Positions 2,625 to 7,662 of a stretch of DNA of 64,000 nucleotides are shown piece by piece. Both the position numbers and the translations under genes were made by a program. The stretch comes from Polynucleobacter arcticus (GTDB taxonomy: Bacteria > Pseudomonadota > Gammaproteobacteria > Burkholderiales > Burkholderiaceae). Position 1 is the first letter of the stretch, and each line of letters starts with the position of its first letter. The stretch lies in the NCBI RefSeq assembly GCF_013307205.1, contig NZ_CP028940.1, forward strand, positions 851,702 through 915,701. The letters run 5' to 3'. Below the pieces are notes generated by a model. The model was not told the origin of the DNA and did no database searches. It worked only from the letters and a program-made list of their open reading frames with translations.

Positions 2625-2712
2625 GGAAGAGTGGCAGAGTGGTCGATTGCAATAGTCTTGAAAACTATCGTTCCGAGAGGAACCGTGAGTTCGAATCTCA
2701 CCTCTTCCGCCA
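2625..2712 (+). tRNA. tRNA-Ser(UGA)
   Basis: The complete cloverleaf is visible. Acceptor GGAAGAG pairs with CTCTTCC. The D arm is GCA...TGC. The anticodon stem ATAGT/ACTAT encloses loop CTTGAAA with anticodon UGA. The long class II variable arm is GTTCC GAGA GGAAC. The T arm is GTGAG TTCGAAT CTCAC, followed by discriminator G and an encoded CCA. Its last 14 bases form the left attachment core of the integrated element. Its D, anticodon and variable regions differ from the truncated copy 100 bp upstream. Confidence 0.96.
2699..2712 (+). repeat. attL core (tRNA-Ser 3' end)
   Basis: The 14-bp sequence CACCTCTTCCGCCA is the end of the T arm, the acceptor 3' strand and CCA of tRNA-Ser. An identical copy stands at 7649-7662. 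Integration therefore leaves the tRNA gene whole. Confidence 0.85.
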
Positions 2713-2865: not shown

Positions 2866-3114
2866 TTAGTGGGATTGAGATTCCTCATCCACGAGTTGAA
2901 TTAGCTTTGCGGGTTTGATTTTGAGGGCTTTTGATATCTTGAAGATGATGGATATAGTTGGTTGGTTATGTCCAAGCTCAATAAGGCTTATGTAATTCCT
3001 CTGAATTTCAGCCTCAAGCCCCAATTCCTCCTGAGATAAATCGGCCTTGAGCCTTAAGTTTCTAAGCACTCTCCCAAAGGCTAAATTTAAAGGTGATCTT
3101 TTTGTTCCCAACAT
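2866..3114 (-). CDS. XRE-family (Cro/CI-type) DNA-binding regulator
   Basis: This 82-residue protein is almost entirely one helix-turn-helix domain, about residues 14-73, including LSQEELGLEAEIQRNYISLI. Such small proteins act as repressors or immunity-type switches in mobile elements. It is transcribed divergently from the membrane-protein gene at 3182, with 67 bp between, so it plausibly controls that cargo unit and itself. No clear operator repeat was seen in the gap. The family call is secure and the target is inferred. Confidence 0.8.
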   Translation of the reverse strand: MLGTKRSPLNLAFGRVLRNLRLKADLSQEELGLEAEIQRNYISLIELGHNQPTISIIFKISKALKIKPAKLIQLVDEESQSH

Positions 3115-3181: not shown

Positions 3182-3625
3182 ATGATTTCAAGCATAAGAG
3201 ATTTGCCTGTATTCAGGCTAATGAAGGGGTGGCGAATCCAGCTTGCCTTGGTAGCGGTACTTGGGTACTTCTTCATTTCAAAAAATGGTTTTCTCTTGGC
3301 TTATCTAAAAATAATTGGATGGGTTTTCTTTGGGGTTGCCCTAGTGTTAGCCATTTTTACATCTGGATTTATAGACAAAGTATGTCGTCGAAAGTTTTCA
3401 ATTTCATATAAGTTCAGAACTTGGATTGGATTCCCACTCTTTTTCTTGTTTTTTTATTTGGTTGAAAATGGATCTGACTATGTTCTGAGAAATTACTCTG
3501 GGTATCCAGTCTATGTTTTGTATCCCTGTACTTATCCACCATCACTTGGTGATCAGGAGAGGGAGGCAAAAGCTTTTTGGAGGCTTAAGCCATTTCAGGA
3601 TTTTGATTGTGGCTCTGATGATTAA
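3182..3625 (+). CDS. Hypothetical membrane protein, element cargo
   Basis: I do not recognise this 147-residue protein. Hydrophobic stretches at about residues 19-33, 38-62 and 82-96 suggest three membrane segments. A hydrophilic C-terminal tail of about 45 residues contains several Tyr and Pro residues, two Cys and an acidic end. The ATG at 3182 gives the frame with sensible membrane topology. A shorter overlapping frame from 3145 lacks it. It lies divergent from the XRE regulator and upstream of a lipoprotein gene, so the two may be a co-regulated envelope cargo pair, for example for entry exclusion. That role is speculation. Confidence 0.6.
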   Translation: MISSIRDLPVFRLMKGWRIQLALVAVLGYFFISKNGFLLAYLKIIGWVFFGVALVLAIFTSGFIDKVCRRKFSISYKFRTWIGFPLFFLFFYLVENGSDYVLRNYSGYPVYVLYPCTYPPSLGDQEREAKAFWRLKPFQDFDCGSDD

Positions 3626-3703: not shown

Positions 3704-4081
3704 GTGAAGAAACTTTTACTTTTTCTAATGGTAATAACAGGTCTTTTGACTGGGTGCGCGACTAGAGAAAAATATGTAAATAAGCTTAATACTCTTGTGG
3801 GTAAGCAAGAAAGCCAGCTAGTTTCAATGTGGGGTATGCCTACAAGCATGTATGAGGCTGATGGCCTTAGATACTTAACTTATACCCGATCTGAAACAGT
3901 CTATATTGCTGGCACCCCAGCAAAGACCACTACAACCTATTACCTCGGTAAGCCCATCCCATTTCAAACTGTTGGCACCTCGGACTATAGCTATACCAAA
4001 GACTGCACCACAACTTTTACAGTCATAAACAAAGTCATATCCAGCTTCCGAATTCAAGGCAATGACTGCCTCTCAGATTAA
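3704..4081 (+). CDS. Small lipoprotein, element cargo
   Basis: This 125-residue protein starts at a GTG at 3704, preceded by GGAGGG at a proper distance. The N-terminus is a lipoprotein signal, MKKLLLFLMVITGLLTGCA, with lipobox LTGC, so the mature protein would begin at Cys18 and be lipid-anchored. The mature part has the VGKQESQLVSMWGMPTSMYE pattern seen in small SmpA/OmlA-like lipoproteins, followed by a Thr/Tyr-rich region and a C-terminal CTTTF...NDC pair of cysteines. Its function is unknown. It follows the membrane-protein gene in the same orientation. Confidence 0.65.
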   Translation: MKKLLLFLMVITGLLTGCATREKYVNKLNTLVGKQESQLVSMWGMPTSMYEADGLRYLTYTRSETVYIAGTPAKTTTTYYLGKPIPFQTVGTSDYSYTKDCTTTFTVINKVISSFRIQGNDCLSD

Positions 4082-4102: not shown

Positions 4103-4588
4103 TTATTCGGTAACTAATATTTCTCCCTCCTTATCTGAGGGTAGCTTTTCATCTCCCCTGATAAGTATTTGATACCTATTGCCACGCTTAATCGCTGATG
4201 GATGCTTTCTTCCCTTTGGGATTAGGAATCGAATATAGCCAAAACCTTTTAGGCGACTTATTGCCTTGGTGACTGATGGTCGCTGAATTCCCAAATGACT
4301 GGCTAATGTGGACTGATTAGGAAAGCAGATACCTTTCGGGCTGGTATAGCAACAAAGCGCGCCCAACACTCGTAAATCATTCCTTGATAGTCTTGTATCT
4401 GAAATAGCTCTGGAGGGCATAAGACTAAATGCAAGCGGAAATGGGGTGAAATTCCAAAGAAAATTTGAGTCAGGCCACCCTATCGGATACACCCATGGGG
4501 GAGGGGGCAAGGCCTCTTTCTTTGATGTTCGGGATTCGATCCTAATGAGCTTAGGCTTTTTAGGTAGTTTGAATTGAACTTCTTTCAT
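4103..4588 (-). CDS. Winged-helix protein, probable replication partner
   Basis: This 161-residue protein has a basic, proline-rich N-terminus and a winged helix-turn-helix domain at about residues 66-120 (CFPNQSTLASHLGIQRPSV, then AISRLKGFGYIRF). A basic wing, KGRKHPSAIKRGNRYQI, follows. This type of domain occurs in plasmid and phage replication initiators and in some regulators. Its start overlaps the end of the upstream iteron-bearing gene by 4 bp, which implies translational coupling and a shared task. I infer a replication or copy-control role. Catalytic motifs for primase or helicase are absent. Confidence 0.65.
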   Translation of the reverse strand: MKEVQFKLPKKPKLIRIESRTSKKEALPPPPWVYPIGWPDSNFLWNFTPFPLAFSLMPSRAISDTRLSRNDLRVLGALCCYTSPKGICFPNQSTLASHLGIQRPSVTKAISRLKGFGYIRFLIPKGRKHPSAIKRGNRYQILIRGDEKLPSDKEGEILVTE

Positions 4589-5304
4589 TTAAGCATTCCC
4601 TTGATCCGTAATCCAATATCAGTAGTGTTCTCACTCTTGTCACAAGTGATCCTTAGGCGGGCAATTAACTCTCTTACCAAGGCAGCATTTTCATACCAGT
4701 ACGCACCATATTTTTCCTCTAGCTTGGCATTAGTTAAATTAGACTCACCACTGGTTTGACTCTCCTTAAGAGGGGGTGGCATTGCTACTCTATTCTCTTC
4801 ATCTGTTTCATTAAATTCTTCTTTAGTTGTAGTTGTATATAGTTCCTTAGTAGTTAGGGTGTTCTGTAGGACAGGGGTTAAGCGAACTGTAGGACAGGGG
4901 TTAGTGCCTTTTAGAACACCCGTAGGGTTGTGTTCTAGGACAGGGGTAGGGGTGCTCTGTAGGACAGGGGTAAGAGTGGTTGAATCCGCATTACCTTTGT
5001 TTGATCTACTCTTAATTGCCTTAGACAAGGCTGACCCTTTATGAACTAAAAAGATGGTTGTGCACCCTGGATTTCCACCTAGCGAGTTACCAACTCTAGA
5101 GATATATTGATCCTCCTCTAACTCCCTAAGTATCTTTTGCGCATAGCGTTCTTTTATCCCTGATAGCTCTGCAATCCTATCAACACTGGGATTACATCTC
5201 CATGTCTTATTGTTTGCATGATTGGCTAGAACCCATAGAACCATCTTATGAATTGGCTTTCTAAATCCAACCATGTGCCCGACAATTACCACTGGAAACT
5301 TCAT
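4585..5304 (-). CDS. Replication initiator-like protein with intragenic iterons
   Basis: From the ATG at 5304 this is 239 residues, with AAGGA upstream. An extension to 5448 would overlap the AlpA gene and lacks support. Residues about 10-90 form a winged-helix domain of the phage O/plasmid Rep type (KTWRCNPSVDRIAELSGI, then ILRELEEDQYISRVG). Residues about 110-155 are low complexity, with TPVLQ, TPVLE and TGVLK repeats encoded by DNA iterons. A polar, acidic C-terminal third follows. Order and content recall lambda O, where the initiator binds iterons inside its own gene. It sits between the AlpA regulator and a second winged-helix protein. No helicase domain is present, so host DnaB would be needed. 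Confidence 0.65.
   Translation of the reverse strand: MKFPVVIVGHMVGFRKPIHKMVLWVLANHANNKTWRCNPSVDRIAELSGIKERYAQKILRELEEDQYISRVGNSLGGNPGCTTIFLVHKGSALSKAIKSRSNKGNADSTTLTPVLQSTPTPVLEHNPTGVLKGTNPCPTVRLTPVLQNTLTTKELYTTTTKEEFNETDEENRVAMPPPLKESQTSGESNLTNAKLEEKYGAYWYENAALVRELIARLRITCDKSENTTDIGLRIKGMLK
4780..4860. other. AT-rich tract beside iterons (candidate unwinding region)
   Basis: Immediately downstream of the iterons in the gene's sense direction lies an AT-rich stretch. It has strong purine bias on the coding strand around residues KEEFNETDEENR. This copies the lambda ori order of iterons then AT-rich region. The unwinding role is inferred from position and composition only. Confidence 0.4.
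4864..4971 (-). repeat. Iteron ladder: four clear copies plus one degenerate
   Basis: On the coding (minus) strand the unit is ACCCCTGTCCTACAG. Exact copies lie at 4957-4971, 4887-4901 and 4864-4878. A shortened copy ends at 4947 and a degenerate copy lies at about 4909-4923. Copy ends are 22-24 bp apart, close to two helical turns. The copy at 4887-4901 is identical in DNA but read in another frame (CPTVRL instead of TPVLQ). The DNA rather than the peptide is therefore conserved, which is why I call these protein-binding iterons. Confidence 0.7.
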
Positions 5305-5308
5305 CTCA

Positions 5309-5521
5309 TTAATCCTTAGCGAGAGATGATTTTTCAAGAATCCAATTATCGATGTCACTCTCAAGCCATACCCTGAGTGTTGTCGATAATCTAATAGCCT
5401 TCGGGAATCTCCCAGTCGCCTCCCATGCCAAGATGGTGCTTTTACCAAGCCCTGTTTGATTTGCTACATGATCAAGTCTTACAAATCTAGGTTGATTATT
5501 TAGCGTGCTTTCAATCATCAT
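5309..5521 (-). CDS. AlpA-like excisionase/regulator
   Basis: This 70-residue protein matches the AlpA/MerR-like short DNA-binding family: RLDHVANQTGLGKSTILAWE forms the helix-turn-helix, and FPKAIRLSTTLRVWLESDIDNWI the wing with its conserved Trp. AlpA proteins activate integrase or act as recombination directionality factors in P4-like elements. There are tandem ATGs at 5521 and 5518, and the second has better spacing from the AAGGA site. It ends 4 bp before the replication-like gene at 5304, so the genes 5521 to 4103 probably form one leftward operon. Confidence 0.8.
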   Translation of the reverse strand: MMIESTLNNQPRFVRLDHVANQTGLGKSTILAWEATGRFPKAIRLSTTLRVWLESDIDNWILEKSSLAKD

Positions 5522-5593
5522 TTAGTCCTTATAAGTAACGGCAATTCCGTACTTACATTTCAGACTAAATTACATATTTGATCTAGACGGGGG

Positions 5594-5609
5594 TGCTAGC
5601 TGGCAGACA
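5594..5609. repeat. 16-bp direct repeat, copy 1
   Basis: TGCTAGCTGGCAGACA overlaps the stop codon of the coiled-coil gene. An identical copy in the same orientation lies at 7543-7558, between the integrase start and attR. Together they frame the coiled-coil and integrase genes. Confidence 0.6.
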
Positions 5610-6150
5610 GCATTTCCTTAAATTCAGTCACCCAATCCTTTAGAGCTCCAAGTGTCCATGGCTTTTTAGTATCGGGAAATTTACTTTGAAGTCTTAAAAG
5701 TAGTCTAGCTGGGCTAATACTTGCCTGACCATTTTTACTCATAGCTAAATATTCTGCTTGAGCTATTTTTTTGTTAGTCGCATAGGGAGCATTTTTCTGT
5801 TTCGCGCCCTCCTTAGAGGAGTTGATCGCAGAATCTTGAGCTTTTTTAGCCGCCTTTATTAGCCTGTTGTTTGAATTGAGTAGGGTGGTGTTGTCAGACT
5901 CCATTACCTTCAATTTAAGAGTAAGTATTGCAAGCTGATCTATCAACTGATCGGCAGTTAGATTTTGCTTCGATAGATCTTTTTTCATCTTCGAGATGGC
6001 TTGAGCTCTTTTCTTCTCTGACACTTGCGACTCTCTAGGATCACCATCATTAACCTTAAATGAGAATCCTCTAGCCCCGTCAAGGGCGACCTTATATTCT
6101 CTAGCCCATAGATTTTTTAGAGCGGTTGCTTTTGACACTATTTTCTTCAT
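5596..6150 (-). CDS. Hypothetical coiled-coil protein
   Basis: This 184-residue, Lys- and Ala-rich protein is not recognised. Residues about 45-115 are strongly helical with heptad-like Leu/Ile spacing (LTADQLIDQLAILTLKLKVM), suggesting a coiled coil. The last 45 residues look like a compact domain with W and F positions (KKPWTLGALKDWVTEF). It lies between the integrase and the AlpA gene in the same orientation. A 16-bp repeat shared with the region near the right end covers its stop codon. It might be an accessory DNA-binding or partition-like factor, but nothing here proves that. Confidence 0.55.
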   Translation of the reverse strand: MKKIVSKATALKNLWAREYKVALDGARGFSFKVNDGDPRESQVSEKKRAQAISKMKKDLSKQNLTADQLIDQLAILTLKLKVMESDNTTLLNSNNRLIKAAKKAQDSAINSSKEGAKQKNAPYATNKKIAQAEYLAMSKNGQASISPARLLLRLQSKFPDTKKPWTLGALKDWVTEFKEMLSAS

Positions 6151-6239: not shown

Positions 6240-7439
6240 CTATGCTGTTTTTAAAGCCACTACATTTGTTGTTGATCCTTGAGCGCAATAATCCGACCAG
6301 TCCTCCATCAATGAGAGTCTTTTAGCAAGTAGATCTCCTCTCCTATATGCGGCCTCAACTCGATTCTGAATGGTGTGTGCAAGAGCCTTCTCAGCCAATT
6401 CAGTAGGGTAGTCCGTTAGTTCTGATACCCAGTCCCTAAAAGAGGATCTAAACCCGTGAACTGTAGTGTCGAATCCCATCCTTTTGGCAACTGAGTACAT
6501 CGCCATATTGCTGAGTGCTTTTCCCTCGATTGAGAATAGGTACGGACTATCAGGATCAAGATATTTACCAATTTCAATTAATTCCAATGTCCTTGTTGTC
6601 AAAGGCACTCTATGTTCTTTTCCCGCTTTCATTCGCTCGCCCGAAATAGTCCACACACCATCTTGAACTTCACTTCTCTTAGCTCCAATAACTTCACCAG
6701 TACGCGCGCAAGTCAGGATGGCAAATTCAAGGGCGATAGCACTAATGCCTTCCCGCTCTCTTAGCTGGCTAATGAATGTTGGTACTTGGCTGAAATGAAG
6801 TGCTTTGAAGTGCTTTGTCTTATTTGTCTTTTTGGGCTTTGGGAGAATGGTGTCGAGATGCGCCCTCCATTGGGCTGGATTAATGCCTTCTCTGAGCTTT
6901 CTAGTGGTGGCTGATGCAAGTATCCATTCAAGCCTACCTCTAAGTCTAGAGGCAGTTTCCGTCTTGTTAAGCCAAATTGGTTGAAGGATCTTGAGTATGT
7001 CCTCGGTTGTGATTTCATTGAGGGGTTTATCTCCAATTACTGGATTTGCAAACTCTTCAATCGTGTAAGTCCATTGATCACCATGTTTAGAGTTTTTCCA
7101 TTCGGGCGACTTTAGCTCAATACAAGATTTAGCAAAATCCTTAAACTTAGTTTGCTCTTTTAAAGAATCCTTCTTTAAGGCTCTTTTATCCTCTATTGGA
7201 TTCACCCCTTGGGCGAGTTTAATTCTCGCCTCCATAGCCCCTTTACGGGCTTCTGAAAGAGATATAAAGGGAAATACTCCCAATGACATATCTTGTCGCT
7301 TTCCAAGCTTCATGTATCTGAATATCCAATACTTCTTTGAAGGCGACTTTACCCAGAGATGGAGTCCAGATCCGCTATCGAAATATCGACCCGTCTTGGT
7401 TATTTTTTGTGCAAAGTTAAAGCTAAGAGTTATATTCAT
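6240..7439 (-). CDS. int: Tyrosine-type site-specific integrase (P4 family)
   Basis: This 399-residue recombinase would catalyse integration at the tRNA-Ser 3' end. An N-terminal DUF4102-like arm-binding domain (residues about 1-90, with GSGLHLWVKSPSKKYWIFRY) is followed by a core-binding domain and the catalytic domain. Catalytic residues are visible: Arg246 in CARTGE, His328 and Arg331 in HGFR, His355 in LAHT and nucleophile Tyr365 in AAYRRGD. Its length is normal for P4-type integrases. It is the gene nearest attR and reads inward, away from the right end. It appears intact, so the element may still be mobile. Confidence 0.93.
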   Translation of the reverse strand: MNITLSFNFAQKITKTGRYFDSGSGLHLWVKSPSKKYWIFRYMKLGKRQDMSLGVFPFISLSEARKGAMEARIKLAQGVNPIEDKRALKKDSLKEQTKFKDFAKSCIELKSPEWKNSKHGDQWTYTIEEFANPVIGDKPLNEITTEDILKILQPIWLNKTETASRLRGRLEWILASATTRKLREGINPAQWRAHLDTILPKPKKTNKTKHFKALHFSQVPTFISQLREREGISAIALEFAILTCARTGEVIGAKRSEVQDGVWTISGERMKAGKEHRVPLTTRTLELIEIGKYLDPDSPYLFSIEGKALSNMAMYSVAKRMGFDTTVHGFRSSFRDWVSELTDYPTELAEKALAHTIQNRVEAAYRRGDLLAKRLSLMEDWSDYCAQGSTTNVVALKTA

Positions 7440-7449
7440 GGCTATATCG

Positions 7450-7470
7450 TTCCATCATTTGTTCCCTCAA
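7450..7470 (+). repeat. Candidate right integrase arm-type sites
   Basis: TTCCATCA (7450) and TTCCCTCA (7462) are spaced 12 bp, just upstream of the integrase start. The 21-bp segment matches 2756-2776 at 19 positions. Binding here could also repress the integrase promoter. The role is inferred. Confidence 0.5.
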
Positions 7471-7542
7471 AACATCTATATAAGATGTAAGAAGGTATTG
7501 ATATGAAATGTATCGCCTAAGAATTGATTGGGCTAGGCTGGT

Positions 7543-7558
7543 TGCTAGCTGGCAGACA
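7543..7558. repeat. 16-bp direct repeat, copy 2
   Basis: This is identical to 5594-5609. It lies in the roughly 200-bp non-coding stretch between the integrase and attR, where I see no gene. That stretch otherwise holds only the arm-site candidates and the attR core. Confidence 0.6.
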
Positions 7559-7648: not shown

Positions 7649-7662
7649 CACCTCTTCCGCCA
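7649..7662 (+). repeat. attR core
   Basis: CACCTCTTCCGCCA is a stand-alone copy of the last 14 bases of tRNA-Ser, with no T arm before it. This is the displaced chromosomal end of the attachment site. It marks the right boundary of the element. Confidence 0.85.

Follow-up and report, generated by a model that had tools for sequence, protein, structure and literature searches.

A putative lambda-O-like replication origin inside the HTH_36 initiator gene of an integrated 4950-bp element in Polynucleobacter arcticus

Results

An integrase/AlpA element at the 3′ end of a tRNA-Ser gene

The window, that is, the whole 64,000-nt stretch of the Polynucleobacter arcticus genome analysed here (contig NZ_CP028940.1, positions 851,702 to 915,701), carries at tRNA-Ser an integrase/AlpA element whose unit between the att cores measures 4950 bp. 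Besides an integrase, a 184-aa protein and AlpA, its genes encode a putative replication initiator together with a second HTH_36 protein, as well as an HTH_3 regulator and two proteins classed as cargo:

2625 to 2712, plus strand: tRNA-Ser(tga), the integration site
2699 to 2712, plus strand: left att core CACCTCTTCCGCCA, at the 3′ end of tRNA-Ser
2866 to 3114, minus strand: HTH_3 repressor-like protein (PF01381, E=1.1e-12)
3182 to 3625, plus strand: cargo, probable membrane protein (no family above the cut-off; a 37% relative in the same place in G070)
3704 to 4081, plus strand: cargo, probable lipoprotein (phrog_3716, unknown function, E=3.2e-11)
4103 to 4588, minus strand: second HTH_36 protein, 161 aa (PF13730, E=6.2e-11)
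4585 to 5304, minus strand: putative initiator gene, 239 aa (HTH_36 winged helix, predicted-disordered linker, helical C-terminus)
5309 to 5521, minus strand: AlpA-type excisionase/regulator (PF05930, E=2.6e-13)
5596 to 6150, minus strand: 184-aa protein between integrase and AlpA (no Pfam family above the cut-off, no strong PHROG match)
6240 to 7439, minus strand: tyrosine integrase (PF00589, PF13356, PF22022)
7649 to 7662, plus strand: right att core CACCTCTTCCGCCA

Within the window the att core has just two copies, at 2699 and 7649. A search for empty sites in 61 genomes gave a match in 13, and the junctions inspected in three of these (G109, G010 and G096) were exact in all three: an intact tRNA-Ser(tga) ends in the core and continues with the window sequence after 7662, the core being followed by TATACGACAGCAG, which matches the window from 7663. 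Direct-repeat att cores together with empty sites in relatives identify this unit as an integrated element at a tRNA 3′ end. At 2474-2517 we also noticed a 44-nt 5′ half of the host tRNA-Ser(tga) that is identical to the sequence in the relative G096; after a further 107 nt comes the complete but different tRNA-Ser(tga) of the integration site. A similarity search of the genome itself found no other full copy, and the original gene was apparently disrupted, a foreign one taking its place.

The initiator gene and the second HTH_36 gene overlap, the stop of the former with the start of the latter. This downstream gene matches HTH_36 and not PF06992 and has 35 homologues; among 186 genomes of the genus it was found in two, G000 and G070. 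Neither packaging or mobilisation genes nor a primase were recognised among the eight element ORFs scanned, and no lambda-P homologue or other helicase loader was found in the element. The lipoprotein-like cargo gene (3704-4081) additionally gave a weak match to phrog_1119, a superinfection-exclusion family (E=0.0024). Two further repeats, one of 19 bp (GGGTGCTAGCTGGCAGACA, 95%, at 5591-5609 and 7540-7558) and one of 21 bp near both element ends (90%, at 2756-2776 and 7450-7470), are possible arm-type sites for the integrase or AlpA.

Iteron repeats within the initiator gene

Inside the initiator gene, the 15-mer ACCCCTGTCCTACAG occurs in three exact copies, one copy with two mismatches and one degenerate copy with six, at start-to-start steps of 24, 24, 22 and 23 bp:

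4957 to 4971, minus strand: iteron 1, exact
4933 to 4947, minus strand: iteron 2, two mismatches
4909 to 4923, minus strand: degenerate copy, six mismatches
4887 to 4901, minus strand: iteron 4, exact, out of frame with the other copies
4864 to 4878, minus strand: iteron 5, exact

An earlier note, made from the letters of this DNA, had listed three exact, one shortened and one degenerate repeat at steps of 22-24 bp, and all were recovered. The dyad CTGT-CCT-ACAG can be read off the sequence of every exact copy, and the flanking sequences differ between the copies. The copies at 4957, 4933, 4909 and 4864 share one frame and encode TPVLQ, TPVLE, TGVLK and TPVLQ, respectively; the exact copy at 4887 lies in a different frame from these four and encodes NPCPTV.

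Three exact 15-mers, three exact 13-mers or four exact 11-mers arose in none of 2000 protein-preserving codon permutations, nor did they appear in any of 2000 resamplings drawn from the codon usage of the neighbouring element genes; four exact 9-mers were reached in 0/2000 permutations and 1/2000 resamplings. A search of the whole window for the 15-mer with up to three mismatches yielded five matches against a shuffle mean of 0.89, a count of five being reached in 1 of 100 shuffles, which alone is weak evidence against chance. In the 2.09-Mb genome, four of the five matches with at most two mismatches lie inside the initiator gene. The cluster within the gene is not due to chance, and the frame-shifted exact copy at 4887, taken with the failure of all 2000 codon permutations to yield three exact 15-mers, supports the claim of the earlier note that selection acts on the DNA.

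The encoded protein and the adjoining AT-rich tract

The 239-aa protein matches HTH_36 (PF13730) at residues 17-68 (E=3.5e-13), N-terminal of the repeats as had been proposed, and is matched by PHROG replication-initiation families. Two of these, phrog_678 and phrog_345 (replication initiation, O-like), are common to its N-terminal part and that of lambda O, while phrog_391 matches both proteins mostly over different parts. Phage_rep_O (PF04492), which lambda O matches with E=5.7e-36, did not appear up to E=1 in the search that returned HTH_36; we file the protein as belonging to the lambda-O-like kind by function and layout and not to Phage_rep_O. An AlphaFold model built from eight sequences (mean pLDDT 59.6, pTM 0.37) shows a winged helix that extends to about residue 95 (pLDDT mostly 70-88 between residues 10 and 90), then a stretch with pLDDT <50 at residues 96-186, and a three-helix C-terminus with pLDDT 86-89 from residue 190. 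It is the low-confidence stretch, a linker predicted from the model to be disordered, that the iteron DNA encodes. Structural matches to the fold are mostly MarR- and CRP-type regulators.

Directly after the iterons on the coding strand, in the 60-nt windows at 4802-4861 and 4782-4841, lies the AT-rich, purine-biased tract already described in the earlier note:

4782 to 4861, minus strand: AT-rich purine-biased tract, candidate unwinding element (70-73% A+T and 60-70% purine in 60-nt windows)

The coding strand of 4782-4841 has 73% A+T and 70% purine. The tract is AT-rich, yet other parts of the element are more so, 91 of 4892 60-nt element windows being at least as AT-rich as its best window, and its position in this gene alone gave p 0.12. 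The 4950-bp element contains no perfect DnaA box. Between 4500 and 5700 the promoter scan found two promoter-like sites against a shuffle mean of 2.4, none of them within the repeat zone. Terminator-like sites numbered five against 1.1 in shuffles; four are overlapping versions of one stem at 4500-4521 on the plus strand, inside the second HTH_36 gene region.

Homologues of the initiator

In a database of 5.8 billion proteins the initiator has seven homologues, one of which (P0001) is 99% identical with three differences. Conservation of the iterons was assessed at the peptide level by back-translation of these seven proteins. The peptides of P0001-P0004 allow both end copies and the frame-shifted copy with no mismatch; the minimum numbers of mismatches at these three copies are 2, 0 and 1 in P0006 (52% identical) and 1, 1 and 2 in P0005, and P0007 (39% identical) keeps none. 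The frame offset of copy 4887 is kept in P0001-P0004 and P0006. As regards frame-independent conservation of the 15-mer, the check suggested with the original observation, the homologue peptides are compatible with conservation of the iterons as DNA, short of proof. P0001 is listed with a contig of 5039 nt, near the 4950 bp of the element. P0007 shares with the initiator the C-terminal tail but not the linker; at 3163 nt, its longest contig equals in length that of P0011, which is a homologue of the second HTH_36 protein.

No close DNA relative of the initiator was found in genome_contigs, viral_contigs, phages or plasmids, nor did a P0007-based search of viral_contigs return one. Scans with a pattern of two iteron cores gave 70 stretches in genome_contigs and 3 in viral_contigs; we treat these 73 loci as chance matches because the initiator profile found no relative among their ORFs. 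A stricter 26-base iteron pattern had no match in viral_contigs.

Embedded repeats in other HTH_36 genes

We tested 87 ORFs for repeats of their own, 33 of them found via the initiator or its alignment (the window gene included; HTH_36 membership not individually confirmed by Pfam) and 25 and 29 via the HTH_36 model, taking the reading frame of each from its search. Left out were genes already counted (L001-L003, L005, L011 and L017, which are the same genes as L006/L009, as well as L130-L133 and L135), the chance pattern match L004, and further hits to which the searches assigned no locus; the second ORFs of L031, L038 and L039, which carry repeats, are among these hits and stand outside the count. 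Of the 87 ORFs, 20 (8/33, 1/25 and 11/29 by set) contain a 13-mer of their own that is present, with at most one mismatch, three or more times within 350 bp, always 3′ of the match start, with copies in more than one frame in 15 of the 20 and recurring spacings of 21-25 bp. In 60 codon permutations each, 17 of the 20 were never equalled and the other three were equalled by 1, 1 and 3. For the 29 phylum ORFs, choosing the longest ORF or the frame of the search gave the same counts, 11 and 8. These counts are lower bounds because the finder gives only two copies for the positive control, lambda O, though its record annotates four iterons. The same finder detected no such repeats in the remaining 67 ORFs, many of which are weak matches and may be ordinary regulators.

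An AT-rich window adjoining the last repeat was commoner in the 20 ORFs than expected from position alone (Fisher p=3e-4), a value computed with sibling ORFs included, so that the ORFs are not independent. One of the 20, L160 (G151:C643), lies on a contig of the same genus that by eye looks phage-like; this HTH_36 gene has three repeats of its own in two frames, the last of them close to an AT-rich window (p 0.11 in the position test), and Phage_lambda_P (PF06992) directly downstream.

Concerted change of protein and repeats in three ICE-like loci

The HTH_36 genes of G098, G109 and G112 (L115-L117) are close relatives, each with four to six dyad repeats that lie inside the gene and occupy two or three frames; the G109 locus was read by eye as ICE-like, with VirB-, ParA-, ParB- and SSB-like genes around the HTH_36 gene. 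CGACAATTTGTCAC is present five times in G109 and CGAACAAAGTTCAC six times in G112, with one mismatched copy in each; in G098, four places show the G109-type iteron and the fifth an intermediate sequence. Between G109 and G112 five aligned iteron places change identically, across all three frames, with 40/70 identical columns in the iterons against 105/125 in the rest of the zone, and the presumed recognition-helix region differs as well (SDRSVQRS vs TDRAIQKN). In 90-column blocks, the short last block omitted, identity between G098 and G109 is 89-99% in the first 540 columns and 68-91% in the next 540; for G109 and G112 the values are 68-80% over the first 540, 77-86% at 540-720 and 97-100% at 720-1080. 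The simplest reading of these alignments is that binding domain and iterons were exchanged as one block against a conserved C-terminus. No AT tract follows the iterons in the trio (p 0.36-0.43). By analogy, the trio supports the view that the window protein reads its own repeats.

Exchangeable genes in the place of the initiator

The closest sister element, in G070, sits at a tRNA-Ser(gga) and shares with the window element its integrase (71% identity), AlpA (70%), HTH_3 protein (63%) and second HTH_36 protein (69%). Its neighbouring genes are the same, and the place of the initiator is held by a different gene of replication type, for a 319-aa AAA_25 protein. The repeat search of this sister element gave two-copy repeats only and no iteron cluster, which speaks for the iterons going with the initiator and not with the second HTH_36 protein. 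Between its AAA_25 and second HTH_36 genes (L161, 6350-6389) we observed an inverted repeat, TGTTGCATGTTGCAT/ATACAACATGCAACA, a possible site of this element's own replication or regulation.

Twenty further integrase regions (L165-L184; integrases 52-60% identical) appear as a one-genus family of integrase islands, mostly with an AlpA-like ORF and with very different genes in the slot. An AlpA-like ORF lies near the integrase in 13 of the 20 and none was labelled in six, L168 among them; in L179 a 28% AlpA match falls in a 246-aa ORF elsewhere and was left out of the count. The slot scan covered nine proteins, in or near the place of the initiator, from six of the 20 regions. Matches above the cut-off were D5_N/PriCT_2/DUF5906 (L168), AAA_25 (L173), DNA_pol_A (L166) and the relaxase family Mob_Pre (L180), those below it ORF2/G2P-like (L165) and ParB_N (L177); two of the remaining three proteins had no match and one a weak, unrelated match. 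Several of the other 14 regions have a slot ORF of about 770-800 aa. The slot thus holds exchangeable modules, several of them for replication, and its content offers the best contextual evidence for a replication-initiator role of the window gene.

Discussion

We propose that the window gene encodes an O-like initiator with the origin inside its own gene, which starts replication of the 4950-bp element after excision, and give this reading a probability of just under 0.8. The N-terminal winged helix would bind the dyad iterons (core CTGT-CCT-ACAG) within its own gene, the mid-gene DNA of which probably doubles as binding site of the encoded protein; the iteron DNA could tolerate such a function because the encoded linker is predicted to be disordered. 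Occupied iterons, which lie about two helical turns from one another, would then unwind the AT-rich tract beside them; a helicase would be brought in by the helical C-terminal domain, either directly or via a partner. Following excision by integrase and AlpA, the element would replicate from this embedded origin, the iteron zone being most likely the start point of its copying. Binding, unwinding, helicase recruitment and excision are steps that we infer, and use of the host DnaB is put equally conditionally because no lambda-P-type loader was found. The O-like layout and the replication role, both suggested in the earlier note, gain from the frame-indifferent repeats, the replication-type slot genes, the PHROGs in common with lambda O and the concerted change of the ICE iterons. 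Weighing against the reading are the failure to find a lambda-P homologue or another loader in the element or a Phage_rep_O match in the protein, the AT tract (neither the richest in A+T within the element nor significant in its position, and without a counterpart in the ICE trio), the lack of a perfect DnaA box, the 67 ORFs in which the finder detected no repeats, and P0007, which keeps no copy.

Dyad sites next to a helix-turn-helix protein are equally typical of regulators, and the fold matches are mostly of the MarR and CRP type, so the repeats might instead bind the protein as operator or copy-control (handcuffing) sites, with the origin elsewhere or none at all. We consider this unlikely: the sites lie mid-gene in the layout of lambda O, the promoter scan of 4500-5700 was no better than shuffles, and replication-type proteins hold the same place in several sister elements. 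It is rather improbable that the iterons are bound by the second HTH_36 protein (4103-4588) and not by the initiator, for even though the former is encoded beside them, G070 has a 69% identical copy of it and lacks the cluster, and the iterons of the ICE trio sit in a gene whose own recognition-helix region co-varies with them.

The lack of recognised packaging or mobilisation genes in the eight ORFs scanned would suit a decayed relic whose iterons are remnants of a once-active origin; integrase, AlpA and initiator are all intact ORFs, however, the 99% identical protein with its three differences is listed with a contig of 5039 nt, and the peptides of P0001-P0004 allow three perfect copies including the frame-shifted one, all of which makes a relic very improbable. 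Selection on the peptide or recent tandem duplication of coding sequence would explain why three of the four good copies share a frame and give TPVL[QE], but it has next to no chance of being right, being contradicted by the frame-shifted exact copy at 4887, by the different flanks of the copies and by the frame offset kept in P0001-P0004 and P0006.

If the embedded-origin reading is extended, such origins might be a general strategy of HTH_36 initiators in phages, ICEs and int/AlpA islands, with block-swapped specificities and, in this island, a non-P loader that is possibly the second HTH_36 protein. This generalisation is tentative and the odds are somewhat against it; if it were true, domain and sites would travel on one recombining unit and iteron specificities could therefore be swapped between unrelated elements. 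Because helix region and iterons differ together in the trio, a comparative approach could be used to test the protein-DNA code of such initiators. In the parts of the literature covered, mostly outside subscription journals, we found no account of HTH_36 genes in ICEs, or in islands of this type, that contain an origin. The findings would extend the lambda-type arrangement of an origin in the initiator gene beyond phages to a 5-kb chromosomal island and ICE-like loci, and they suggest that the origins of uncharacterised elements may be found from sequence alone, by searching the linker-coding part of HTH_36 genes for frame-indifferent repeats.

Comparison with known systems

The closest parallel is lambda O with ori-lambda, and with it the Stx phages P27 and 933W, where an N-terminal DNA-binding domain, mid-gene iterons and an adjoining AT-rich tract are arranged as here (PMC7466680). 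The iterons of lambda are likewise dyads in several frames, the four annotated ones occupying all three, and PHROG families are in common. The differences are that lambda O belongs to Phage_rep_O and the window protein to HTH_36, that the iteron sequences differ, that a P gene adjoins O and none adjoins the window gene, and that one is a phage and the other an element of 4.95 kb. L160 shares an HTH_36 initiator with its own repeats, but has a lambda-P homologue downstream and an unrelated iteron sequence; the genes of G098, G109 and G112 share embedded dyad repeats in an HTH_36 gene, but have ICE-like neighbours, a longer C-terminus and no AT tract after the iterons.

As a small integrated element with int, AlpA and a replication module, the island also resembles PICMI/P4-like satellites and Gram-negative PICIs, a likeness underlined by the D5_N/DUF5906 protein of the sister region L168. 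PICMI, as described in PMC10803314, carries int, alpA and a DUF3987/DUF5906 primase next to fis; it is primase-based and uses the fis site, whereas the window element uses tRNA-Ser and has no primase in its eight ORFs. In Gram-negative PICIs the origin lies, according to PMC6092414, immediately 3′ of the initiation gene and not inside it as proposed here, and phage satellites differ further in that no helper phage is known for the window element. SGI1, which is integrated too, has an iteron origin of its own, and its relatives have an alternative replication gene; its oriV is downstream of rep, hence outside the gene (PMC7433901), and its initiator is of the RepA_C family. The element would work in lambda style within a PICMI-like chassis.
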